Part shown: positions 17,557 to 38,802 of the stretch, one piece after another | Layout: each line of letters begins with the position of its first letter | How positions within the stretch are numbered: the first letter of the stretch is position 1 | Assembly: GCA_006218065.1 (NCBI GenBank) | Contig: VBWE01000025.1 | Span: 1 to 47,028 of the forward strand | Reading direction: 5' to 3' | Length of the DNA: 47,028 nt | From: Bacteroidota bacterium | Lineage (GTDB): Bacteria > Bacteroidota > Bacteroidia > Palsa-965 | Made by a program: the position numbers and the translations under genes | Notes under the pieces: generated by a model | What the model was told of the DNA's origin: nothing | Seen by the model: the letters and a program-made list of their open reading frames with translations, nothing else | Databases searched by the model: none

Positions 17557-18147
17557 TTAATATGAACTCAGGAGCGATATTTTGTTCTCTTCCGCCATTT
17601 TGCGCATGTTGATCAGGGCATAGCGCATACGACCCAGCGCAGTATTGATGCTCACACCCGTAGAATCTGCGATTTCCTTGAAACTCATGTCCAGGAAGTG
17701 GCGCATGACGAGTACTTCACGCTGTTCACGGGGGAGCAACTCGATCATCTTGCGCAGATCGCCGCGGATCTGGGCTTTGACCAGGCGGTCTTCCACGTTA
17801 CCCTGGCGAAGACGGAGCACGCTGAAGATGTCGAAATCTTCTCCCCCGTCAACTACCGGCATACGTTTCAGGCGGCGGTAATGATCGATGATCAGGTTAT
17901 GCGAGATGCGCAGCACCCAGGGCAGGAATTTGCCTTCATCGTTATACGTGCCACGTTTAAGTGTTGAAATCACTTTGATAAACGTGTCCTGGAAAATGTC
18001 CTCAGCCAGATGCCGGTCGCGGACCACCATCATGATGTAGGAAAAAATACGCTTTTTGTGTCGTTGGATTAGTACCTCGATACAGGATTCATCCCCGGCG
18101 GCGTACAGGTTGACCAAATCGTGGTCATTGAGCTGGTGCTTCTGCAT
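17557..18147 (-). CDS. RNA polymerase sigma factor, ECF/sigma-70 family
   Basis: The protein has 196 residues. Region 2 reads DRHLAEDIFQDTFIKVI and FLPWVLRISHNLIIDHYRR. Region 4 reads LLPREQREVLVMRHFLDMSFKEIADSTGVSINTALGRMRYAL, a helix-turn-helix for the -35-type element. There is no region 1 or 3, as in ECF factors. A good Shine-Dalgarno (AAGGAGG, minus strand 18160-18154) lies just before the ATG, unlike most genes here. No anti-sigma factor gene is adjacent, so control is likely transcriptional or by an unlinked factor. The downstream 64-aa protein is separated by a terminator. Confidence 0.92.
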   Translation of the reverse strand: MQKHQLNDHDLVNLYAAGDESCIEVLIQRHKKRIFSYIMMVVRDRHLAEDIFQDTFIKVISTLKRGTYNDEGKFLPWVLRISHNLIIDHYRRLKRMPVVDGGEDFDIFSVLRLRQGNVEDRLVKAQIRGDLRKMIELLPREQREVLVMRHFLDMSFKEIADSTGVSINTALGRMRYALINMRKMAEENKISLLSSY

Positions 18148-27649: not shown

Positions 27650-28038
27650 GTTCTTCCCCGTTTGAAAAAGAAGCCGCGGTTTTCGGACGCTACCTGTTGC
27701 GCGACGAACCAAACGCACAGTCGGTACAGCTTTATGTTTCGGCCATGCAGATCCGCCCGGTCAATTGTACTATGCGCGATGAAAAAATAATCCGTTTTGC
27801 GCTCCAAAATTCCGGATGCCTGGCGATGATCGACGGCGCGCTGGCATTTTCAAAAAGACCTTCCGCGCTTCGCGAAAAAATGCTCGTGATGACCGCTATC
27901 CTGGAAACACAACCGGCTTACGCGAATTTATTTTTGCCGCAGCAGCGGGCTGCCGGTTACCGGATTCTCATGGGTTTCCGGCTTTGCGGGGCCGCTTTTC
28001 GCCTGCTCGCAGGAAAAATGCTCTTAGTTTTTATCTGA
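27646..28038 (+). CDS. Hypothetical protein preceding the GMC oxidoreductase
   Basis: The protein has 130 residues, with start and stop both overlapping its neighbours (ATGA and TGATG). It is mostly helical with a hydrophobic C-terminus (GFRLCGAAFRLLAGKMLLVFI) and no signal peptide. I do not recognise it. Some GMC oxidoreductases need a small partner subunit, and the tight coupling would fit that, but no twin-arginine signal typical of gluconate-dehydrogenase subunit 3 is seen. Confidence 0.75.
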   Translation: MSSSPFEKEAAVFGRYLLRDEPNAQSVQLYVSAMQIRPVNCTMRDEKIIRFALQNSGCLAMIDGALAFSKRPSALREKMLVMTAILETQPAYANLFLPQQRAAGYRILMGFRLCGAAFRLLAGKMLLVFI

Positions 28039-29648
28039 TGGAATTGCACGACTTCATCGTTGTCGGATCCGGTTGCACGGGCGCCATGGCGGCACAAACG
28101 CTGGTGGAAAGCGGCGCGCGCGTGCTGATGCTCGACGGCGGAAAACGCGGCGGCGTGTATCAATCCATCACACCTTCCAAAAATTTTCCTGCGATCCGTC
28201 GCGAAGAACAGGACCAGCACCGCTACCTGCTCGGCGACAAGTTCGAAAGTATTCCCGCCGGTAAAGTCAGCACGGGCGAACAGCTTACTCCTGCGCGGCG
28301 GTTTATGATCGAAGCGGCGGACCATTTCCTGCGTCACCGTTCCGATACGTTTTTCCCGATGGAAAGTCTCGGCTACGGCGGGCTGGGCGCAGGCTGGGGA
28401 TTGGGCTGCTGTGTTTTTTCGGAAAACGAATTGAAAAAGGCCGGGCTTCCCGTTGCTGAAATGCAGTCGGCATACCAGCTTGTTTCCGACCGCATCGGCA
28501 TATCGGGCAGCAGCGACGACGCGCAGGCGTTTACATTCGCTCACCTGGAAGGTATTCAGCCCGCGCCGCGCCTGCATCCCACGGCGGAAAAAATTTACAG
28601 CCGTTACGCCGCCAAAAAAACAGCGCTGAAAAAAAACGGTTTCCATCTCGGCCGCCCCGCGCTTGCCCTGCTCACACAGGAAAAAGATCACCGCAAGCCG
28701 CTCGATTACCGCGACATGGAATTTTACGATGACAAAGGTTTGTCGGCATGGCGCGCCTGGATTACGGTGGATGAATTACAGAAAAAAAATAATTTCATGT
28801 ACCGCGGCAGTACACTGGTCACTGCTTTCCACGAAGAAAACGGCAGCGTGCGCGTAGAATCGCTCAACCTCGATACGCAGGAAAAAGAAACTTTTCATTG
28901 CCGGAAACTGGTCCTCTCGCCCGGCGTACTCAGCACGGCGCGTATCGTTTTACGGTCGATGGACGAAAACAATCATCGGCTTCCGCTCCTCTGCAACCCG
29001 TACAATTACACGCCCTGCCTCGTGCTTTCCGAAACCGGGAAATCGCTGCCGGACGCGCTGACGGGCATGGCGCAGCTTTCGCTTTTCCACGATGCCGACG
29101 GAACACAAACCGATGTGGCCATGGCTTCGCTTTACAATTACCGTTCGCTGCTTATGTTCCGCCTGCTGAAAGAAGTACCGCTCGGTTTCCGCGATGCGCG
29201 GATGCTGATGAATTATCTTTTGCCGGGAATCGTCATCATGGGTATTCATCACCCGGAATCCGCGGGCGGGGAAAAATTTCTTCACCTGGAAGCGGATTCC
29301 TCCTCTCCTACCGGCGATCTTTTGCGTACGGTTTATAAACTGAACGAAACCGAATCGGCAAAAATCACCGCGCGCGAAAAACTGTACGCCAAAGCCATGC
29401 GCAAACTTGGCGCCTGGGCGCTGAAACGCGTCTCGCCCGGGCACGGCTCCAGCATTCATTATGCGGGCACACTGCCTTTCGACGATAACGGGAAACCGTT
29501 TTCCATTCATCCTTCGGGAAGACTGAACGGAACGGAAAATGTTTTTATCGCCGACGGATCGGGATTTCGTTTTCTTCCCGCCAAAGGCTTGACACTTTCG
29601 CTGATGGCCAACGCGCATCTTGTTGCAGAAAAACTGCTAAAAAAATGA
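28038..29648 (+). CDS. GMC-family FAD-dependent oxidoreductase
   Basis: The protein has 536 residues from ATG 28038; an in-frame extension to 27816 would run through the upstream gene and is rejected. The dinucleotide-binding motif is FIVVGSGCTGAMAAQTL (6-22) with LMLDGG after the second strand. The middle region reads ESLGYGGLGAGWGLGCC, as in the FAD loop. The C-terminal block is GSSIHYAGTLPFDD with SGRLNGTENVFIADGSGF and LPAKGLTLSLMANAH, the GMC C-terminal pattern with the catalytic His region. It oxidises an alcohol, probably a sugar or polyol derivative; substrate unknown. It is cytoplasmic. Confidence 0.88.
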   Translation: MELHDFIVVGSGCTGAMAAQTLVESGARVLMLDGGKRGGVYQSITPSKNFPAIRREEQDQHRYLLGDKFESIPAGKVSTGEQLTPARRFMIEAADHFLRHRSDTFFPMESLGYGGLGAGWGLGCCVFSENELKKAGLPVAEMQSAYQLVSDRIGISGSSDDAQAFTFAHLEGIQPAPRLHPTAEKIYSRYAAKKTALKKNGFHLGRPALALLTQEKDHRKPLDYRDMEFYDDKGLSAWRAWITVDELQKKNNFMYRGSTLVTAFHEENGSVRVESLNLDTQEKETFHCRKLVLSPGVLSTARIVLRSMDENNHRLPLLCNPYNYTPCLVLSETGKSLPDALTGMAQLSLFHDADGTQTDVAMASLYNYRSLLMFRLLKEVPLGFRDARMLMNYLLPGIVIMGIHHPESAGGEKFLHLEADSSSPTGDLLRTVYKLNETESAKITAREKLYAKAMRKLGAWALKRVSPGHGSSIHYAGTLPFDDNGKPFSIHPSGRLNGTENVFIADGSGFRFLPAKGLTLSLMANAHLVAEKLLKK

Positions 29649-30523
29649 GCGTGAACAAAACCATGCTGATCACGGGAGCGACCGGATTCATCGGGCAGGC
29701 TTTGCTGCATCATTTTCTCGGGCAGGGCTGGAAGATCGTCGCACTGGTGCGGAAAGACCCGGCGGAAAAAATACCCGGTGTTATTTACCAGCATTTCGAC
29801 CTGCATTCCCCACGGCTCGACAGCGACACGTTCAAAGGCATCGATGTATTCATTCACGCAGCATACGTTAAGGCGGAAAAAGGCGTCGATGCTTTCACGA
29901 TTAATACGAAGGCGGCGCGGCAGCTTCACGAATCGGCCCTGCGGCAGCAGGTCGCGCAGACTGTTTTTATTTCGAGCCTCGCGGCGAAAAAAGAAGCGGT
30001 TTCCGAATACGGCAAACAGAAATTCGCCGTCGAAGAAATTTTTTCAGGCGCGCAGGACGTGGTTGTGCGACCGGGACTCGTGCTCGGCCCCGGCGGGCTT
30101 TTCGGAAAAATGCGCGCGCATATTGAAAAACGCGGCCGCATCCCGCTGATCGGCGGAGGAAAACAGCCGCTGCAAACCGTACACATCGACGATCTCGTAG
30201 CCGCGATAGAAAAAATCATCGAAACAAAAGCGAAAGGCGTTTTCACGATCGCTGAACCGGAACCTGTTCCTTACCGGGAATTCTACGAAGAACTCTGCCG
30301 CGTACTGAACGGTAAACCGCAGTTCAAATACATTCCGTACTGGTTCATGAGTTTTGTTTTGCGGACTGCCGGTATTTTCGGCATGGAACTCCCGGTGAAC
30401 AGCGATAACCTGCGCGGGCTGAAAACCATGCAGGCCGTGGATTCGAAGGCAAGTCTTACGAAACTGGGAATACGGGTTAAGGATTACAAAGAAAGTTTGC
30501 AGGCTATTGCCTCGGCGCGGTGA
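29645..30523 (+). CDS. NAD(P)-dependent epimerase/dehydratase (extended SDR)
   Basis: The protein has 292 residues. The Rossmann motif is GATGFIG (11-17). The active-site pattern SEYGKQK gives Tyr122 and Lys126 (YxxxK) with Ser110/111 upstream (FISSLA). VVRPGLVLGPGG and VHIDDLV are typical of sugar-nucleotide or related extended SDRs. It overlaps the GMC gene by ATGA and closes the operon. The pair could oxidise and then epimerise or reduce the same intermediate, possibly a sugar head group. The 3' end meets the convergent pseudouridine synthase gene one base away. Confidence 0.87.
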   Translation: MSVNKTMLITGATGFIGQALLHHFLGQGWKIVALVRKDPAEKIPGVIYQHFDLHSPRLDSDTFKGIDVFIHAAYVKAEKGVDAFTINTKAARQLHESALRQQVAQTVFISSLAAKKEAVSEYGKQKFAVEEIFSGAQDVVVRPGLVLGPGGLFGKMRAHIEKRGRIPLIGGGKQPLQTVHIDDLVAAIEKIIETKAKGVFTIAEPEPVPYREFYEELCRVLNGKPQFKYIPYWFMSFVLRTAGIFGMELPVNSDNLRGLKTMQAVDSKASLTKLGIRVKDYKESLQAIASAR

Positions 30524-30524
30524 A

Positions 30525-31232
30525 CTACTTGATCATCCGCAGCAACACGTCCCGTTCTTCTTCTGCAAGTTCCTTCCACTCTCCGGGATGAAGCCCGGCG
30601 GTTGTTATATGTGCAATACGCAGCCGCGTAAGCCGGACGACATTGTACCCGAGTTTGTAACACATCCGCCTGATCTGCCTGTTCAGTCCCTGCGTGAGTA
30701 TGATGCGAAACGTATCGGGCGATTCGTTTTCACGCGCGATGATCACCGGCCGCGTTTTTTTTCCCATGATGGTCACGCCGGCAGACATCTGTTTTAAAAA
30801 ATCGTCGTCAAAAGAACGATCAACTGTAACAACATATTCCTTTTCCCGGTGCGTCCTGCTGTCCGACACTGCGCGCGCAATCCGGCCGTCGTCGGTGAGC
30901 AGCATCAGTCCTTCGGATTCTTTATCGAGTCTTCCTGCCGGTTGCCAGGGCGCGGGATGGCTGACCACCGAACGGAGATTTCCGGCGATATGCTGTCCTG
31001 TCGTACTTTCAATTCCTGCCGGTTTGTAATATTTGATGTATGTAAAGTTCACGCCCGGGCGGATAATTTTCCCGTCGCAACTTACTTCATCCCAGTATTC
31101 CAGTTTTTCAGACGGCGGAACTTTCCGCCCATTGACGAGTACACGTCCTGCGCCGATAATTTTTTCGGCCTCGGCATTCGGAATTTTGAAATACCGGGCG
31201 ACAATGGTGTACAAACGCGACATGCCGGGCAT
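30525..31232 (-). CDS. rRNA pseudouridine synthase, RsuA/RluB/E/F family
   Basis: The protein has 235 residues from ATG 31232; ATG 31223 (MSRLYT) is equally possible. An N-terminal S4 RNA-binding domain (RYFKIPNAEAEKIIGAGRVLVNGRKV) precedes the catalytic domain. The active-site block is PAGRLDKESEGLMLLTDDG, with the Asp of RLD as the nucleophile. NRQIRRMCYKLGYNVVRLTRLRI is the conserved C-terminal motif. It isomerises one uridine in ribosomal RNA; the exact position cannot be told. It is convergent with the epimerase gene. Confidence 0.92.
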   Translation of the reverse strand: MPGMSRLYTIVARYFKIPNAEAEKIIGAGRVLVNGRKVPPSEKLEYWDEVSCDGKIIRPGVNFTYIKYYKPAGIESTTGQHIAGNLRSVVSHPAPWQPAGRLDKESEGLMLLTDDGRIARAVSDSRTHREKEYVVTVDRSFDDDFLKQMSAGVTIMGKKTRPVIIARENESPDTFRIILTQGLNRQIRRMCYKLGYNVVRLTRLRIAHITTAGLHPGEWKELAEEERDVLLRMIK

Positions 31233-31296
31233 AACAGGATAGTTTAAATAATAGTCTTTACTCCTATTTGCGATTGTCGATTGAGGATTTAAACTT

Positions 31297-31363
31297 TAGC
31301 GTCTTTACGCCTTAGCGGTGAAGATTGTAATCCGGACTTTACCGCGAAGACGTAAAGACGCTA
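31297..31363. repeat. Inverted repeat of an ACCGCGAAG/CTTAGCGGT word
   Basis: TAGCGTCTTTACGCCTTAGC (start 31297) and GACGTAAAGACGCTA (ending 31363) are arms of a 26-bp imperfect inverted repeat (about four mismatches) with a 15-nt loop. Outer sequences (GGATTT / AAATCC words, 31267-31399) also pair loosely. A single arm recurs at 36084-36108. It lies in the 175-base gap between the lipid operon's end and the pseudouridine synthase gene. Confidence 0.65.
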
Positions 31364-31407
31364 ACGGGTACTCAAATCGGAAATCCGCAATCGGAAATCC
31401 AATTGGT

Positions 31408-32640
31408 TCACCAGTTCGGATTATTCGGGCGCGAGTACAGCAATTGCATCACGTTGATATTCCGCATGCTGAACGCCGCTTCGCAGTAACATAGATAATA
31501 GTTCCATTTGCGCAGGAAACGTTCGTCGAATCCCAGTTTGGAAATTTCCGCCGATTGCCCGTTGAAATTCGTCCGCCAGGCAGCCAGCGTGCGCGCATAA
31601 TCACGGCCCATATCTTTCAGGTCGATCAGCGAGAGATCACCGGCGCGATTGACCGCTTCGTTGATGCGGCCCACCGAAGGCAGCAATGACCCGGGAAAAA
31701 TATGTTTCTGAATCCAGTCCACGCCTTTGCGCAAACTGTCGTACCGCGAATCGGGTGAAGTGATCACCTGCAGGGCGAGGAAACCGTCACGCCTGAGCAG
31801 GTCGGTGCATTTCTGGAAATAGATGTCGAGAAATTCATCGCCGACGGCTTCGAGCATTTCCACGGATACGACCCGGTCGAATTGTCCTTTTATTTTCCGG
31901 TAATCTTCGAGCATGATTTTCACCTGTCCTTCCAGCCCTGCGGCTCTCACACGTTCCGTCGCCAGTTTGCACTGCTCTTCCGAAATGGTAATGCTCGTGA
32001 CATTACATCCGAATTCCGAAGCCATGTACATCGCGTTGGCGCCCCAGCCGCTGCCGATTTCGAGTACTTCGAGACCGGGACGCAGGTGCATCTGTTTGCA
32101 CAGACGCCGGTATTTCGCCCGCTGCGCTTCTTCGAGCGTCATCGTGTCCTGCTCGAAATACGCGCTGGAATAGGTCATCGACGGATCGAGCCAGAGCGAA
32201 AAAAAATCATTGTTAAGATCGTAATGGTCACTGATATTTTTCCGGGAGCCGTCCAGGTTATTCGCTCTTCCCCAGTGCTGCAGGCGGTTGAAAAATTTAA
32301 GCAGGTTGAGCGTGGCCTGCGTCGCACCGCCCGAAACGGGAGCGTTGTCGATATTCAGCAGGAACCATTTGATCACGTCCGTGATGCTGCCGGTGTCCCA
32401 GTCGCCGTCCACGTACGCTTCCCCGAAACCGATATCGCCGTAAAGCACGCAGCGTTTAAAAAAACCGGGCGAATTGATTTTAATATCCGCTTCCACATTT
32501 CCTGCGCCGTCGCCCAGCGTAACCGATTCACCGGTGTGCAGCGTAACATGCAAACGTCCCTTGTCCATTTTCGACAACAATCCGAAAACGGCATTTTCAT
32601 AAAAACTCAGTGAGCGTGAAATTGCGAGCGTTGCAGCCAT
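31408..32640 (-). CDS. CFA-synthase-like SAM methyltransferase (lipid acyl chain)
   Basis: The protein has 410 residues, close to cyclopropane fatty acid synthase. Family blocks: DHYDLNNDFFSLWLDPSMTYS (from 138), SAM motif VLEIGSGWGANAMYMA (192-207), VSVEMLEAVG (258-267), VDWIQKHIFPGSLLPS (307-322), and RNINVMQLLYSRPN near the end. Compared with E. coli CFA, the position of Cys139 is Ser159 and that of His266 is Gln291 (LALQVITS), while the catalytic-site Glu (Glu264) is kept. Two bicarbonate-site residues are thus changed, as in the methyltransferases that put a methyl branch on an unsaturated chain. It is the last gene of the lipid operon, four bases after the lipoprotein gene. Product probably a methyl-branched or modified acyl chain rather than a classical cyclopropane. 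Confidence 0.87.
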   Translation of the reverse strand: MAATLAISRSLSFYENAVFGLLSKMDKGRLHVTLHTGESVTLGDGAGNVEADIKINSPGFFKRCVLYGDIGFGEAYVDGDWDTGSITDVIKWFLLNIDNAPVSGGATQATLNLLKFFNRLQHWGRANNLDGSRKNISDHYDLNNDFFSLWLDPSMTYSSAYFEQDTMTLEEAQRAKYRRLCKQMHLRPGLEVLEIGSGWGANAMYMASEFGCNVTSITISEEQCKLATERVRAAGLEGQVKIMLEDYRKIKGQFDRVVSVEMLEAVGDEFLDIYFQKCTDLLRRDGFLALQVITSPDSRYDSLRKGVDWIQKHIFPGSLLPSVGRINEAVNRAGDLSLIDLKDMGRDYARTLAAWRTNFNGQSAEISKLGFDERFLRKWNYYLCYCEAAFSMRNINVMQLLYSRPNNPNW

Positions 32641-32644
32641 TGTT

Positions 32645-33964
32645 TTACAGTTGGTGACTCCATAACAGTTTACCCGTTTTCATATCGATGCAGGCCATCC
32701 GTAACTGGGAAATAAACACGAGTTTATTGTCGAGGCACCTGAACCATTGATAATCGAACTCCGGGTTGCCGTCGGAAAAAACAGTTTCGAACGCACCGGC
32801 ATTATCCGCTTTGGAAGGGTCGTAATAAAACTCATCGAGCTTGATCTGCCAGGCCTGTGCGAAAGACGAATCGGGATTCAGTTTCATTTTCGAAACCAGG
32901 GCGCGGCAGGTATCGCCCACGCTGCTTGCACTCCAAACGAGCAAACTGTTCTTCTCGTCCGCAAGCAGGTACGAGCGGTGGTAATCGCCGTCTTTCTCCC
33001 AGCGCTGCAACTGGTACTTCTCGTTACCGATCGAACGGTTGATCTCCTCCCACTCGCGTTTCATTTCGCGGAGTTTATCGGGCAACTGGAAATAATGCAG
33101 CCGTTCATCCGCGATCTGAGGATCGGCCGCAGCGAGTTCTTTCATTCTTTTATCCAGCGAATCGATCCGCCGGGCAAGACTGTCGTACAGCGGTTTTATT
33201 TCTGCAGATCCGCGGAACGGGTTTTCATCCAGCACCAGTTTTGCAAAAAGAAACGAATGCGGCTGGCTCCTTTTGGAGTTTTCATATTCCAGCGTTTTAC
33301 GCGGATCGCCTTTCATGCTTACGTTTTTTTCGTAGCCGAGATCGCCGTTGTTGCTCGTTACTGATCTGCTCCAATTATGATCTTTGATTTCCGCTTCCGT
33401 TTTTTCCACGGCGAACGTATTCGGATCCAGGTAGTATTTGAAACCCTGCTGATCGGTGAACATGATACGCCCGCTGACCGGGTCAAAACCGTAAAAACTG
33501 CTGATCCGGGTCCATTCGGGTTTGGAAAGTGCGAGTCCTTTCATCCCGGGCTTTTCCATCAATTGTTTCTGCGTGGCCAGCACGTCGAGCGTGCCGGGAT
33601 TGCGGTAATGCAGGCCGAGCTCTTCGGAAAAACTAAACATCCAGAGCTTGCCTTCTGTCGTTCCGAGAATCGCCGTTTCGTTTTTATCGCGGCCCTCGCC
33701 CAGTTCCACGCGGGCCATCACGTTCCCGTTTTCAATATTATACGATGTCAGGCGATATTCCGCATACCCGCTGATCGATGTAAAACCGCCGCCGGATTTC
33801 TTGGATGTCGCCTGGAAAATTTCTTCGAATGTGATGGCTATTTTTCCTTCTTTGCCGGAATAAACGGTCGCATATTTTACGTCGTCAGCCACATCGTTCA
33901 TCACGTCCTTGTGAAAACAGGAACTGAGCGTGGCGAGCAGAAGCAATGGTAACAGTCGTTTCAT
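32645..33964 (-). CDS. Lipoprotein of the lipid operon, function unknown
   Basis: The protein has 439 residues from ATG 33964. The signal is MKRLLPLLLLATLSSC with the lipobox Cys16; a longer in-frame start at 34018 would bury it. The mature part is beta-rich with propeller-like strands (ILGTTEGKLWMFSF, GFDPVSGRIMFTDQQGFKYYL, RMACIDMKTGKLLWSHQL) and a helical insert of about 60 residues (LARRIDSLDKRMKELAAADP, KLREMKREWEEINRSI). No enzyme motif is seen. Its place between DUF1365 and the methyltransferase suggests that it works with membrane lipids, perhaps in assembly or sensing, but this is inference. Confidence 0.8.
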   Translation of the reverse strand: MKRLLPLLLLATLSSCFHKDVMNDVADDVKYATVYSGKEGKIAITFEEIFQATSKKSGGGFTSISGYAEYRLTSYNIENGNVMARVELGEGRDKNETAILGTTEGKLWMFSFSEELGLHYRNPGTLDVLATQKQLMEKPGMKGLALSKPEWTRISSFYGFDPVSGRIMFTDQQGFKYYLDPNTFAVEKTEAEIKDHNWSRSVTSNNGDLGYEKNVSMKGDPRKTLEYENSKRSQPHSFLFAKLVLDENPFRGSAEIKPLYDSLARRIDSLDKRMKELAAADPQIADERLHYFQLPDKLREMKREWEEINRSIGNEKYQLQRWEKDGDYHRSYLLADEKNSLLVWSASSVGDTCRALVSKMKLNPDSSFAQAWQIKLDEFYYDPSKADNAGAFETVFSDGNPEFDYQWFRCLDNKLVFISQLRMACIDMKTGKLLWSHQL

Positions 33965-33998
33965 GCTATGAAGATAAAACAATATACGAACCTGCGAT

Positions 33999-34814
33999 TC
34001 AACCGGTTTTATCATCATACGGTTTCAGCACGTCACGTTGCAGGTCTTTATGATCTCCTTTCCGGTAAAACGGAATTTTCTTGAACCAGAGCAGCATCGC
34101 ATTCCAGTGAATGAGCGCGATGATCTTGATCGTGATCAACGGAAAACGCAGCGCGCAGAGCAGCACATTGCCGTTGGTCAGCGCCTTCCGTTTCCCGGTA
34201 AGCGTACTGATAAAAAAGCGGCGATCGTGCTGGTAATCGTCGATGCGGATATCCAGTTTTTCACCGGGAACATCCAGCTGGAAATCAAATTCGGCATCGT
34301 GCGCGATAAACGGTGAAACGTAAAAGTATTTGGGAATCCGCAGGCGGAATGTCGTTCCGTCAAAACGATCGGGACCGAGGTAATACAGTTTCATTTCGCG
34401 GAACGTATTGCCGACTTCGGCCACGGCGCAGATCACTTTCCGCTGTTCATCGAAACAGAAATAAAATGAAACGGGATTGAACTGGTACCCCCAGGTGCGG
34501 AGATTGGTGAGCAGCATGATGGATGCCGGTTTTGCCTTATGCCCGTTTTGTTCCAGGAAATCTTCGAGATGCTGCCGCGTGCTTTTTTTCGTATCCGGAT
34601 TTTTCGCGGGGAACTGTACATGATCTTTATCTCTCCAGCTGAATACGTTGAACCGGTTGATGCCCACCAGCGCAATTTTCCGGCCCACCTTTTCCAGTTC
34701 ATCCAGGTCGAGCCAGAACATGAATACGTTATAATGAAAGCGATGCTTCTTCGGCTCGAGCCGGTTGTGCATTACTAATGCCCTGTAAAGCGCGCTGTTC
34801 ATCGCAGGTTCCAT
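33999..34814 (-). CDS. DUF1365 family protein
   Basis: The protein has 271 residues. DUF1365 landmarks are present: ALVMHNRLEPKKHRFHYNVFMFWLDLDELE at the N-terminus, ILLTNLRTWGYQFNPVSFYFCFD, VAEVGNTFREMKLYYL, KYFYVSPFI, and a hydrophobic C-terminal part (ITIKIIALIHWNAMLLWFKKIPFY). The family is nearly always beside an FAD oxidoreductase and a CFA-like methyltransferase, as here. Its reaction is not established. Neighbour spacing is nine bases upstream and 34 downstream, so it is in the operon. Confidence 0.9.
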   Translation of the reverse strand: MEPAMNSALYRALVMHNRLEPKKHRFHYNVFMFWLDLDELEKVGRKIALVGINRFNVFSWRDKDHVQFPAKNPDTKKSTRQHLEDFLEQNGHKAKPASIMLLTNLRTWGYQFNPVSFYFCFDEQRKVICAVAEVGNTFREMKLYYLGPDRFDGTTFRLRIPKYFYVSPFIAHDAEFDFQLDVPGEKLDIRIDDYQHDRRFFISTLTGKRKALTNGNVLLCALRFPLITIKIIALIHWNAMLLWFKKIPFYRKGDHKDLQRDVLKPYDDKTG

Positions 34815-34823
34815 GCGGAGAAG

Positions 34824-36083
34824 TTACAGAACTTTTCGTTTGAGCAGGTGTTCACAGAGATTCACCGCGGAAAGCAGCGCATCTTCATGGAACCCGTACC
34901 GGAAATAACTTCCGCAATAATGTACCGGCCCGTTTTCGTTGAGCGCAGGCAGTTCGCGTTGCGCAAGCATGGCCGGGACATCGAAAAGCGGGTGTTCGTA
35001 CATGCGCTGCCAGATGATTTTTTTCGGATCGATGCGACCGGTATCGTTGATGGTAACGAAATAATTTTTCTTCTTCGATACCTGCTGCAGGCTGTTCATC
35101 CAGTAAATGGTAGCGGGCTGCATGTTCCCGTTTTTTTCTTCAATCCGGTAATTCCACGAGGACCACACGCTTTTGAGCCGCGGCATGGCGCTTTCATCGG
35201 TATGCAGGATCGCGGAATTTTCCTGGTATTTGAATTTCGAAAGCAAACGTTCTTCACCGGCGGTTTTTTCCTGCATAATTTTGTATGCTTCATCGCCATG
35301 CCCGGCCATGATCACTTTGTCGAATTCCGCTTCCTGGCCGTCGGCAGATTTTACACGTACTTTTTCCCCGGCACGCGTAACGGCAAGCACACCGCAGTTC
35401 ACGCGGATACGGTCACGGAAAGGTGCGATGATCTTTTCCCGGTACATCCTGCTGCCTCCGCGAAGCGTGTACCACTGGTGCTGCGTGTTGAGGCCGAGGA
35501 AACCGTGGTTGTAAAAAAAACGGACCAGCGTTTGTGCCGGGAAACGAAGCATGAGATCCATCGGTGTGCTCCAAACGGCGGAACTCATCGGGATGAGATA
35601 CTTGTACAGGAAATCATTTCCCAGTTCATGCTCTTTGCAGAAATCTTCGACGGTCTGATTTTCGTATTCTTTTTTACCGAGGATGCGGATACTTTCTTTA
35701 TTGAACCGGCTGATCTGCATGAGCATGCGGATAAAACGCGGGCTGAATATATTTTTCCGCTGTGCGAACAAACCGTTCAATCCTGAACCGCAATACTCCA
35801 GCCCGGCAGGCACATGCTGCACGCTGAAGGACATGCTGGTGGGCATGGTGGGCGCATCGAGTTCTGCAAAAAGTTTGGTGAGCAGCGGATACGTAACCTG
35901 GTTATAAACCATAAAACCCGAATCCGCCGCTACTTCGGTTCCGTCTTCATCAGCCGTGATCGTATTCGTATGCCCGCCGATATAATCGTTCTGTTCGTAA
36001 ACAGTCAGATCATATTCTTTCCGCAGGAAATACCCGCAGGCCATTCCGGCGATCCCGGTTCCTATGATGGCGAGTTTTTGCAT
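34824..36083 (-). CDS. FAD-dependent amine-oxidase-type oxidoreductase of the lipid operon
   Basis: The protein has 419 residues from ATG 36083; a longer frame to 36137 would run into a dispersed repeat and the previous gene. The N-terminal FAD motif is LAIIGTGIAGMACGYFL (4-20), with the Glu of VYEQNDYIGGHTNT after the second strand. Later blocks are SGFMVYNQVTYPLLTKLF, MSSAVWSTP, YTLRGGSRMY, and the C-terminal VHYCGSYFRYGFHEDALLSAV that closes on the flavin. It belongs to the group encoded beside DUF1365 and CFA-like methyltransferases, which in mycobacteria and alphaproteobacteria take part in making methylated or furan fatty acids. It probably oxidises or reduces the methylated chain. Confidence 0.9.
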   Translation of the reverse strand: MQKLAIIGTGIAGMACGYFLRKEYDLTVYEQNDYIGGHTNTITADEDGTEVAADSGFMVYNQVTYPLLTKLFAELDAPTMPTSMSFSVQHVPAGLEYCGSGLNGLFAQRKNIFSPRFIRMLMQISRFNKESIRILGKKEYENQTVEDFCKEHELGNDFLYKYLIPMSSAVWSTPMDLMLRFPAQTLVRFFYNHGFLGLNTQHQWYTLRGGSRMYREKIIAPFRDRIRVNCGVLAVTRAGEKVRVKSADGQEAEFDKVIMAGHGDEAYKIMQEKTAGEERLLSKFKYQENSAILHTDESAMPRLKSVWSSWNYRIEEKNGNMQPATIYWMNSLQQVSKKKNYFVTINDTGRIDPKKIIWQRMYEHPLFDVPAMLAQRELPALNENGPVHYCGSYFRYGFHEDALLSAVNLCEHLLKRKVL

Positions 36084-36108
36084 TTTTTTCACCGCGAAGG
36101 CGCTAAAA
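36084..36108. repeat. Dispersed repeat arm inside the lipid operon
   Basis: TTTTTTCACCGCGAAGGCGC followed by TAAAA sits in the 40-base gap between the CNMT-like and FAD oxidoreductase genes. It is closely related to the arms of the repeat at 31297-31363. Confidence 0.55.
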
Positions 36109-36123
36109 TTCGCTGGCCTGTAT

Positions 36124-37146
36124 TTATTTCTTTTCAAGTAAATAATGACTCACAAACCACTCTTCTCCTTTTTTGTATCCCCACAGTTCCGCGCAGGCCA
36201 TGTAGAATACGCGCCAGTAGTTCCACCATTTCCGGGCCTGTGATTTGCCGTAGGTATTTTCGAACAGCGGTATGATTTCTTTTTTATGCGCATCCATATT
36301 CTGCAGCCAGGCTTCGGCGGTTTTCGCGTAATGCACGCCGTTTACCGGCCAATGCGACTTTACCTGCAGGTGTTTATTCCAGGCATAGAGGTAACGATCG
36401 CCGGGCATCATGCCGCCGGTAAAAAAGTAGCGCGACATCCAGTCGCTTTCATCCTTCGCTTCAAAAAGGTACGTGTACGTTTTGTGTACGAAAATATGCA
36501 CGAACAGTTTCCCGTCCTCCTTCAGCCAGCCCGCGATACGTTCGAGCAACAGGCCGTGATTGCGCATATGTTCGAACATTTCGACACTCACGGCGCGGTC
36601 GAATTTTTTCTCCGTATCAAAAACGTTTATATCCGACGTGATCACTTCCAGGTTTTTGATTCCGCGGCTCACGGCCTGCGCATCGATATATTCTTTCTGC
36701 GTCCGCGAATTGGAAACGACAGTGAACCTGCTGCCGGGAAATTTCGCCGACATGAACAGCGAGAGCGAACCCCAGCCGCAGCCGAGTTCGAGCACGTCCT
36801 GCCCGTTGTCCAGCTGCGCGCGTTCGCAAACCATACCGAGCATATCGCGCTCCGCTTCATCCAGCCTATGCACACCGGGTTTCCAGAAACAGCCGCTGTA
36901 CTTCAGGTGCGTACCGAGGCAGTATTTATAAAACTCCGTCGGGACTTCGTAGTGCTGTTCATTGGCTTCGGCTGTGTTCACGGCCAGCGGACTTTTCCCG
37001 AAGGCGCCGAACAGTTTTTCCTCATACCCGGGCCGGGCGTAATTTTTCGCTTCTTCGCGCAACCGCTGCCGCAGCAACCTCCGTATCCCGGCGCGTATAA
37101 GAAAATCGGGCAGGCGGCCCTTCTCGAGTAAGGAATCGATGTTCAC
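36124..37146 (-). CDS. Coclaurine N-methyltransferase-like SAM methyltransferase (CFA superfamily)
   Basis: The protein has 340 residues. Blocks: NEQHYEVPTEFYKYCLGTHLKYS (from 62), SAM motif VLELGCGWGSLSLF (118-131), VVSNSRTQKEYI, VEMFEHM (188-194) with Glu192-His193, VHIFVHKTYTYLFEA, and the C-terminal WLQNMDAHKKEI, WWNYWRVFYMACAELWGYKK, GEEWFVSHYLL. The order and wording follow plant coclaurine N-methyltransferases and their bacterial relatives rather than E. coli Cfa (no YSCAYW). The substrate is most likely a lipid or amine, not a plant alkaloid. It lies between the DUF1295 gene (9 bases) and the FAD oxidoreductase. Confidence 0.88.
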   Translation of the reverse strand: MNIDSLLEKGRLPDFLIRAGIRRLLRQRLREEAKNYARPGYEEKLFGAFGKSPLAVNTAEANEQHYEVPTEFYKYCLGTHLKYSGCFWKPGVHRLDEAERDMLGMVCERAQLDNGQDVLELGCGWGSLSLFMSAKFPGSRFTVVSNSRTQKEYIDAQAVSRGIKNLEVITSDINVFDTEKKFDRAVSVEMFEHMRNHGLLLERIAGWLKEDGKLFVHIFVHKTYTYLFEAKDESDWMSRYFFTGGMMPGDRYLYAWNKHLQVKSHWPVNGVHYAKTAEAWLQNMDAHKKEIIPLFENTYGKSQARKWWNYWRVFYMACAELWGYKKGEEWFVSHYLLEKK

Positions 37147-37155
37147 AGGCAGCGG

Positions 37156-37950
37156 TTATTTTTTCCTGGACCAGGGAACGAATGCGCTGGTGGTGCGCTG
37201 GTATTCGCGGTAGGCATCGCCTTTGGAACGAACGGCCTGTTCTTCGGTCATGGGAATGCCGGTTACTTTAAAGATGAGGTAACCGATGGTGAGCGGACAG
37301 ATCACGGCAATCCATCCGTAAGGACTCGACAGGGAAAAGATGAGCACGGAAATCCAGATCATCAGCTGGAAAAAATAATTCGGGTGCCGCGAATAATTCC
37401 AAAGACCGTACTGACATACTTTTCCTTTGTTCTCTGGTTTACTTTTGAAATACTTCAGTTGCCAGTCGGATACTCCTTCGCCGAGTATGGAGATGAACCA
37501 CATGCCTGCGCCGATGTATTCCAGTATCGTCATCTGCGGCGCTTTATTCATGGCAACGAGAAAAAAAGGCGCCGCGAGGAAAACACAGGAAAGCGCCTGG
37601 GCCTGGAAGAAAATGAAAAACTTAAAGTCAGGATTCGGAACCCATTCGCGGCGGAGCTGTTTGTAACGGCCTTCTTCTTCTTTGAGGTGCGACCCGACGC
37701 GGATGAGCAGGTAAATGCCGAGGCGCATGCTCCACAAACCGGCCAGCAGGCAAACCACCGTTTTGCGCGGTTCGTAGCCGTCGGCCAGCCAGTACACCAG
37801 GCCTGCGACCAGGGCAAAATTAAAGGCCCAGAAAATATCGACCACGCCGGCGTTTTTAATTTTCCACGCCCAGAGCCATACGAGCATCATCACCGCGGAG
37901 CAGGCGGCAGTACAGATTAAAATGATCTTCAGCAGTAAACCGGTATCCAT
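37156..37950 (-). CDS. DUF1295 steroid-5-alpha-reductase-like membrane protein
   Basis: The protein has 264 residues with about seven membrane helices. The family signature is at the C-terminal side: GLWNYSRHPNYFFQLMIWISV, GIPMTEEQAVRSKGDAYREYQRTTSAFVPW. SRHPNY is the nucleotide- or substrate-site motif also found in 5-alpha reductases and isoprenylcysteine methyltransferases. In the operon context it is a candidate reductase of an unsaturated acyl chain intermediate using NADPH; that is inference. It follows the desaturase by seven bases. Confidence 0.9.
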   Translation of the reverse strand: MDTGLLLKIILICTAACSAVMMLVWLWAWKIKNAGVVDIFWAFNFALVAGLVYWLADGYEPRKTVVCLLAGLWSMRLGIYLLIRVGSHLKEEEGRYKQLRREWVPNPDFKFFIFFQAQALSCVFLAAPFFLVAMNKAPQMTILEYIGAGMWFISILGEGVSDWQLKYFKSKPENKGKVCQYGLWNYSRHPNYFFQLMIWISVLIFSLSSPYGWIAVICPLTIGYLIFKVTGIPMTEEQAVRSKGDAYREYQRTTSAFVPWSRKK

Positions 37951-37957
37951 AAATGAA

Positions 37958-38686
37958 TTATGTTTTTCTGAGCTTTATAATATGCAGGGCATGCATCAGC
38001 CGGATTAGCGGCCAGGTAGGATCGAGTTCGAACCACCGTTTGGCAAAATTCGCGTTGTTGGGACTTTTGTGATGATTGTTCTGCATCAGTTCACCCATCA
38101 GCAGCATGTCCAGCGGAAGCGAATTTTTGGAATGATCATCGTTATCGAAATTGGAATACCCGTATTTATGCCCGCACCAGTTTACGATAGCGCCCTGTAT
38201 CGGCCCGATCAGGAAATGAACCGGCAGGAGTAAAAACTGCCACCACGCCGTCGCAAAATACCAGTAGAAGAGAAAATAAAGTACGCCGAACGCAATCCGC
38301 ACCGTCCACATATCGCTGACCCGGTCGACCCATTTCCAGGTCGGGTAATGGCCGCGGAATTCCGGTTCGGGCTGCGTCTTATAACGGACAAAATCCTGGT
38401 AAATGCGTTTGGTTTTCATCATCAGTCCCCAGACATCCTTGATGAAATGCGGGGAATGCGGGTCCTTTTCCGTATCGCTGTAAGCATGGTGCATGCGGTG
38501 CATGATGGCATAGCCGCGGGGATTCAGGAAAGAAGAGCCCTGGAAAAAGAAAGTGAGGAAGTAGAAAAAATGCTCCCAGCCCTTGCTCATCGTAAACATC
38601 TTATGCGAAGCATAGCGATGGAGAAAAAAAGTCTGGCAGAACAAAGACAGGAACCAATGCGACAGGAAAAAAACGAGTATGGCCAT
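37958..38686 (-). CDS. Acyl-lipid or acyl-CoA fatty acid desaturase
   Basis: The protein has 242 residues with several membrane helices. Histidine boxes: HRYASH (23-28), HRMHH (63-67), an accessory GHKYGYSNF near 172, and the third box in GELMQNNHHKSPNN (198-211), where the usual first His is Gln202. This variant third box occurs in a bacterial delta-9-like subgroup. It would place a double bond in a membrane acyl chain and so supply the substrate for the methyltransferases downstream. It is the first gene of the operon. The 116-base gap upstream has no clear TAnnTTTG. Confidence 0.88.
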   Translation of the reverse strand: MAILVFFLSHWFLSLFCQTFFLHRYASHKMFTMSKGWEHFFYFLTFFFQGSSFLNPRGYAIMHRMHHAYSDTEKDPHSPHFIKDVWGLMMKTKRIYQDFVRYKTQPEPEFRGHYPTWKWVDRVSDMWTVRIAFGVLYFLFYWYFATAWWQFLLLPVHFLIGPIQGAIVNWCGHKYGYSNFDNDDHSKNSLPLDMLLMGELMQNNHHKSPNNANFAKRWFELDPTWPLIRLMHALHIIKLRKT

Positions 38687-38802
38687 AAAATCCCCCTGGA
38701 TTCACTATTACTTACGAAAGTAAAGATGAAACAGTTTTACGGAATTGTAAAACCGGGGGGGATTTTTTTCGGGGGATTATGAACCGCGGGGACTTAAACT
38801 GC

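Follow-up and report, generated by a model that had tools for sequence, protein, structure and literature searches.

A conserved Bacteroidota operon carrying a candidate complete gene set for dimethyl furan fatty acid synthesis

The window analyzed here is a stretch of 47,028 nucleotides from a Bacteroidota bacterium (positions 1 to 47,028 of contig VBWE01000025.1, assembly GCA_006218065.1), and the system in question is an operon of seven open reading frames on its minus strand, running from 38686 to 31408. The source genome (5.26 Mb) is 99.98% complete, and the contig carrying the window has a length of 114,866 bases. For two genes, the first in-frame start codon was replaced by the likely start, the ATG at 36083 for the flavin adenine dinucleotide (FAD) enzyme and the ATG at 33964 for the lipoprotein, leaving six intergenic gaps of 7, 9, 40, 9, 34 and 4 bases. 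All seven genes were found where a preceding reading of the DNA without database searches (the sequence-only reading) had placed them, and the coordinates confirm its description of a single-strand array with gaps of 4 to 40 bases. The families were called with Pfam and NCBIfam profiles; SAM stands for S-adenosylmethionine, CFA for cyclopropane fatty acid and NMT for N-methyltransferase.

37958 to 38686, minus strand: fatty acid desaturase of the DesA-like acyl-lipid/acyl-CoA type, 242 amino acids (PF00487, E 6e-14)
37156 to 37950, minus strand: DUF1295 integral membrane protein with steroid-5-alpha-reductase fold (PF06966, 223 bits)
36124 to 37146, minus strand: FufM-type SAM methyltransferase, coclaurine-NMT-like (CMAS, PF02353, 127 bits)
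34824 to 36083, minus strand: UfaD-type FAD enzyme of the amine-oxidase family (PF01593 Amino_oxidase / PF13450 NAD_binding_8)
33999 to 34814, minus strand: UfaO-type DUF1365 protein (PF07103, 252 bits, cut-off 25)
32645 to 33964, minus strand: PA2928-family lipoprotein with signal peptide and lipobox MKRLLPLLLLATLSSC (NF041516, 78 bits, cut-off 70)
31408 to 32640, minus strand: UfaM-type CFA-like SAM methyltransferase (PF02353, 298 bits)

Furan fatty acids (FuFA) are potent natural antioxidants, and their biosynthesis in bacteria has been shown in two Alphaproteobacteria. On both genetic and in vitro evidence, three enzymes produce 9M5-FuFA on the phospholipids of Rhodobacter sphaeroides and Rhodopseudomonas palustris: UfaM, which methylates cis-vaccenate; UfaD, which turns the methylated chain into a conjugated methyl-diene by desaturation; and UfaO, a DUF1365 protein, which inserts oxygen from O2. 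A second SAM methylase, FufM, adds the second methyl group to give 9D5-FuFA (PMC7380195). The R. palustris genes ufaD-ufaO-ufaM are RPA2571-2570-2569, and fufM is RPA0924 (PMC7380195). The UfaD-UfaO-UfaM gene order in the window is the same as that of RPA2571-2570-2569, as compared with the locus tags of that paper. On the best reading of the families, the CFA-like protein corresponds to UfaM, the FAD enzyme to UfaD, the DUF1365 protein to UfaO and the coclaurine-type methyltransferase to FufM, and the operon is predicted to make a methylated furan fatty acid, a reading to which we assign a probability of about 0.77. By family membership, the dimethyl-FuFA gene set of the window is complete and lies within a single conserved Bacteroidota operon, and the end product would be a dimethyl-FuFA. 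The sequence-only reading had proposed a lipid-modifying operon that yields a methylated acyl chain and is tied to enzymes of furan fatty acid synthesis in Alphaproteobacteria; it is supported in these points, the chain as a predicted product. In place of the undescribed chain that it had considered, the best reading is the known dimethyl-furan pathway, which the set matches completely, with DUF1365 as the UfaO family and the coclaurine-type protein as FufM.

The closest known system is that of R. palustris, with the same four enzyme families, the same ufaD-ufaO-ufaM order and the dimethyl-FuFA product that is predicted here; there, however, fufM lies elsewhere in the genome, whereas in the window all four genes belong to a single operon, together with those for a desaturase, DUF1295 and a lipoprotein (the comparison with the RPA genes being one of family and gene order). 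In R. sphaeroides, the ufaD and ufaO genes within RSP1091-1087, members of the singlet-oxygen regulon, represent the same UfaD and UfaO families as in the window, but the product is mono-methyl only, ufaM (RSP2144) is unlinked, the characterized pathway lacks FufM, and RpoE-ChrR is present there while no ChrR lies near the window operon. A Vibrio/Klebsiella-type cluster (locus L041), composed of MerR, NTF2-like, SDR, FAD, DUF1365, CFA, DUF2878 and DUF3833 genes, keeps the FAD-DUF1365-CFA core in the order of the window; it is without FufM, DUF1295 and desaturase, and its accessory genes differ. The Acinetobacter piscicola plasmid pYH12207-1 (L037) carries desaturase, FAD, DUF1365, CFA, DUF1295 and FufM genes as in the window, but in another order, with a photolyase and a lipocalin alongside, a longer and distantly related desaturase and no PA2928 lipoprotein.

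In the source organism, the predicted pathway would act on the acyl chains of already made membrane phospholipids, with a chain length and enzymatic steps that we infer. The desaturase would supply a cis monounsaturated acyl chain; UfaM would transfer a methyl group from SAM, leaving a shifted trans double bond; desaturation by UfaD would give a methylated conjugated diene; UfaO would put in one atom of O2, closing the furan ring; and FufM would add the second ring methyl to form the dimethyl-FuFA. DUF1295 may be a reductase-like membrane partner of FufM, working on the same lipid or on its oxidation product. The furan lipid could then scavenge singlet oxygen and peroxyl radicals at its own expense.

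In the tree, the window UfaM-type protein falls into a clade of 72 UfaO-linked proteins (support 0.996), separate from the cyclopropane synthases. In the solved structure of E. coli Cfa, the catalytic bicarbonate is bound by C139, E239, H266, I268 and Y317. The whole bicarbonate site was kept in 14/14 comparison CFAs (3 solved and 11 unselected, from Pseudomonadota), while the window protein carries S, E, Q, I and Y at these positions and so does not have the site of a cyclopropane synthase. Throughout the clade (72/72), H266 is changed to Q, H240 to A and G236 to E, and C139 is mostly S (E. coli numbering). The change of H266, H240 and G236 in all 72 members, with other CFAs intact, favors a putative methylase without cyclopropane closure. 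The altered site is not decisive alone, because plant FAD-CFA fusion enzymes are reported to make cyclopropane fatty acids. Ordinary cyclopropane fatty acid synthesis, with neighbors that are unrelated to it, would agree with the annotation of the last gene as CFA synthase by homology; given that H266 and C139, both kept in the 14 ordinary or solved CFAs, are respectively replaced and mostly lost in the clade, and that the conserved neighbors belong to the FuFA enzyme families, we find this explanation hardly credible. The cyclopropane synthase reading of the CFA-like gene itself was rejected on the altered site together with the clade.

The UfaD-type protein is 37-40% identical to FAD proteins adjoining RpoE-ChrR in Proteobacteria, and is predicted to convert the methylated chain to the conjugated diene. 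The sequence-only reading had drawn a parallel with tuberculostearic acid synthesis, in which a CFA-like methyltransferase and an FAD enzyme (BfaA/BfaB) make a mid-chain branched acid of the 10-methyl type; DUF1295 would then be a second reductase. The parallel stands insofar as an FAD oxidoreductase does adjoin a CFA-like methyltransferase and a reductase-fold protein is present, but it leaves DUF1365 (UfaO) and FufM, two genes of the conserved core, without explanation. A possible further difference lies in the FAD family: BfaA/TmsA is of the FAD_binding_4 type, and the window protein matches the amine-oxidase family (PF01593/PF13450), with no FAD_binding_4 match listed. We regard such a route as very improbable.

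For the DUF1365 protein, encoded once in the source genome, insertion of O2-derived oxygen and closure of the furan ring are predicted from its UfaO-type family. Its AlphaFold2 (AF2) model is of high confidence (predicted local distance difference test, pLDDT, 94.8). A structure search for a hint of the cofactor gave weak beta-barrel matches only (nitrobindin, fatty-acid-binding proteins and OlmO), the best Z of 6.6 being below the frequent chance level and no Foldseek E falling below 0.001; no sequence relative was found in the PDB.

A profile of the window FufM and its relatives matched coclaurine NMT (6gkv) over the full length with 367 bits and E. coli CFA with 143 bits, which accounts for the coclaurine label given by the sequence-only reading. 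In the tree, the FufM clade had a support of 0.97, and FufM together with the plant coclaurine-type NMTs a support of 1.0. The position equivalent to I268 is F in 96/96 FufM proteins. The window FufM shares 24-27% identity with proteins of the UfaM clade; for comparison, the identity is 26% between RPA0924 and UfaM (PMC7380195) and 37.9% between Arabidopsis FUFM1/LIME1 and FufM (PMC10940516). On this family evidence, a second methylation of the mono-methyl furan ring is predicted for the window protein. If the pathway instead stopped at the mono-methyl furan, the FufM-type protein could be an aminolipid N-methyltransferase paired with DUF1295, in line with its nearest solved relatives, which are N-methyltransferases, and with the DUF1295 superfamily, which includes the methyltransferases ICMT and PEMT. 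We regard this as improbable: FufM of R. palustris methylates the furan in vitro (PMC7380195), and among Pseudomonadota genomes UfaO was found in 18/19 FufM-positive versus 74/280 FufM-negative ones, as fits a furan-dependent enzyme.

DUF1295 is a regular partner of FufM in many bacterial phyla. It was located directly upstream of FufM on the same strand in 61 of the 75 loci with enough sequence, and among the 299 Pseudomonadota genomes a strong DUF1295 match was present in 17/19 FufM-positive versus 9/280 FufM-negative genomes (Fisher p 2e-19, uncorrected for relatedness). The gene is present once in the source genome. Its AF2 model (pLDDT 96.6) matched SRD5A and sterol reductases with Z 15.2-13.9 (15.2 for PbSRD5A, over 207 residues) and ICMT with Z 12.8-11.8, the first unrelated row being at 7.1. 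R188, H189, P190, N191 and Y192 (the RHPNY motif) and D162 are invariant in 49/49 proteins, and both fold and motif place the protein in the steroid 5-alpha-reductase/ICMT superfamily. A decision between reductase and methyltransferase by fold was dropped, both branches giving matches; the reductase is favored because only PF02544 Steroid_dh (34.7 bits) passes its cut-off, the ICMT and PEMT models staying below theirs. As a separate observation, the fold is also matched by chain G of PDB 8xku (Z 11.5, 215 residues), which belongs to the Ycf2-FtsHi chloroplast motor complex of Arabidopsis.

The literature searched contained no relevant report of a FuFA role for DUF1295. Two roles can be envisaged: it may help FufM, or it may reduce the enedione that forms when the furan reacts with an oxidant. 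Peroxyl radicals convert furan fatty acids to enediones (dioxoenes) (PMC2914009), and singlet oxygen is expected to convert them likewise. An NADPH-dependent ene-reductase acting on the oxidized furan lipid would reduce the conjugated C=C, by the chemistry of the 5-alpha-reductase superfamily, to a saturated, less electrophilic 1,4-diketone, which could re-form the furan through Paal-Knorr dehydration. This specific activity is a tentative and rather unlikely proposal; if true, the operon would cover the synthesis of a membrane antioxidant as well as its detoxification or recycling, in a system common to several bacterial phyla and possibly to green algae.

The desaturase scored 118 bits with the DesA_fam_desat model, well under the cut-off of 400, and carries the histidine boxes HRYASH and HRMHH, the third box being read as QNNHH. 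Its orthologs in Bacteroidota operons are 59-83% identical, while outside Bacteroidota the same position is filled by a longer desaturase of 25-30% identity. The presence of a distant, longer enzyme in the same place points to repeated recruitment of a desaturase, for which double-bond supply is the simplest reason, and the window enzyme may accordingly make the monounsaturated substrate. Apart from the window, the operon was seen to include the PA2928 lipoprotein in only two loci, both of the window's own family (L030 and L031, 37-39% identity); it is a lineage-specific accessory gene, with a role that may be likewise accessory.

The gene set is conserved well beyond the window. DUF1365 is rare in Bacteroidota (7/198 sampled genomes) and present in 9/12 genomes of the window's family. 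Several Bacteroidota families share the order desaturase-DUF1295-FufM-FAD-DUF1365-CFA, with proteins that are 44-83% identical. When named genomes were scanned, at least 587 FufM loci were matched, and the best 80 of them came from Mucilaginibacter, Pedobacter, Verrucomicrobiota, Acidobacteriota, Gammaproteobacteria, 'Deltaproteobacteria', Leptospiraceae, Vampirovibrio and others. Cultured carriers include Mucilaginibacter frigoritolerans and Pedobacter zeae. UfaM, UfaD and UfaO were all present in 33 of the 43 FufM loci having enough flank. An accidental grouping, which the sequence-only reading had named as grounds for abandoning its proposal, is rejected by this neighborhood survey, the set being kept in other Bacteroidota and in other phyla. 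What it had taken as a seven-gene set is reduced to six genes that recur in the conserved operon, with the lipoprotein confined to its own lineage.

Other genes also accompany the operon: that of a small membrane protein, DUF1475, in 28 loci (for instance L086:7260-7592 and L026:5794-6123), that of an alpha/beta hydrolase of the BD-FAE type in 20 loci and that of a DUF2062 protein in 16 loci. FuFA-type clusters or parts of them are carried on large plasmids of Klebsiella pneumoniae (L041), Rhizobium (L040, conjugative) and Acinetobacter (L037), indicating that the trait is potentially mobile.

The regulatory neighborhood of the relatives points toward photo-oxidative stress. RpoE-ChrR (ECF11) is the singlet-oxygen sigma/anti-sigma pair. 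It adjoins the relatives' loci L039, L040, L182, L183, L185 and L190; on Shinella and Rhizobium plasmids and in L182 and L190 it lies beside UfaD and DUF1295, and also beside FufM except in L182. The six core functions on the A. piscicola plasmid adjoin a photolyase, and MerR regulators with B12-binding domains (CarH/LitR-type) lie beside the operon in Bacteroidota/Ignavibacteria (L027:4585-5532, L028:4362-5348 and L080:1052-2002). In Chlamydomonas, singlet oxygen induces CFA1, CFA2/CPLD27 (which is coclaurine-NMT-like) and a gene of each of the DUF1365 and DUF1295 families, and this response requires SAK1 (PMC4067076). Blue light induces V. cholerae VC1122, which is annotated as a CFA synthase (PMC5241685). 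The relatives' RpoE-ChrR, photolyase and CarH/LitR-type neighbors, together with the singlet-oxygen induction in Chlamydomonas, support by association a photo-oxidative role of the operon, as the sequence-only reading had suspected, and its expression may respond to light or singlet oxygen.

Several points weigh against the assignment of the operon to dimethyl-FuFA synthesis. The orthology to the tested R. sphaeroides and R. palustris enzymes is indirect, resting on family, gene order, clade and regulator context, with ChrR-linked proteobacterial relatives as stand-ins for the tested RSP and RPA proteins. No report of FuFA in any Bacteroidota was found in the literature searched. FufM of R. 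palustris is sufficient alone in vitro (PMC7380195), so that a partner is not strictly required for methylation. DUF1295 is also a neighbor of UfaD/UfaO in a few Alphaproteobacteria-like genomes that lack FufM: it was present in 5/74 UfaO-positive, FufM-negative Pseudomonadota genomes, on the same contig as UfaD/UfaO in three of the five, and a strict rule that DUF1295 occurs only with FufM is weakened by these cases. Neither RpoE-ChrR nor a MerR-B12 gene lies near the window operon; the window contains one distant ECF-like match (17587-18093, 23% identity), and the source genome one distant MerR-B12 relative (25% identical) on another contig (C1:82025-82852).

The pathway itself has been described before. 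What appears to be new, within the literature searched, is that the genes form a compact operon, that this operon extends beyond Proteobacteria and that DUF1295 is a partner in it. If the assignment is true, the dimethyl pathway is complete in one operon in Bacteroidota, Verrucomicrobiota, Acidobacteriota and others, most of which are not known phototrophs. Furan lipids would then be far commoner than measured, food-web furan acids would have more bacterial sources, and the widespread orphan family DUF1295 would gain a concrete pathway.

At the upstream end of the operon, an inverted repeat, CGGTTTTACAATTCCGTAAAACTG, is located at 38732-38755, about 45 bases ahead of the desaturase start, as a possible operator; none was seen upstream in relatives, nor was a promoter motif shared upstream of the desaturase in relatives. 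At the downstream end, the interval 31265-31400, which separates the operon from the RluF gene, contains the inverted pieces GCGTCTTTACG ... CGTAAAGACGC, resembling a small repeat or terminator element. The block beyond it (27816-31232) encodes an RluF-type pseudouridine synthase, an SDR/epimerase and a GMC-like oxidoreductase, and is syntenic with the own-family locus L030 at 50-55% identity, indicating that the downstream flank of the operon is conserved as well.

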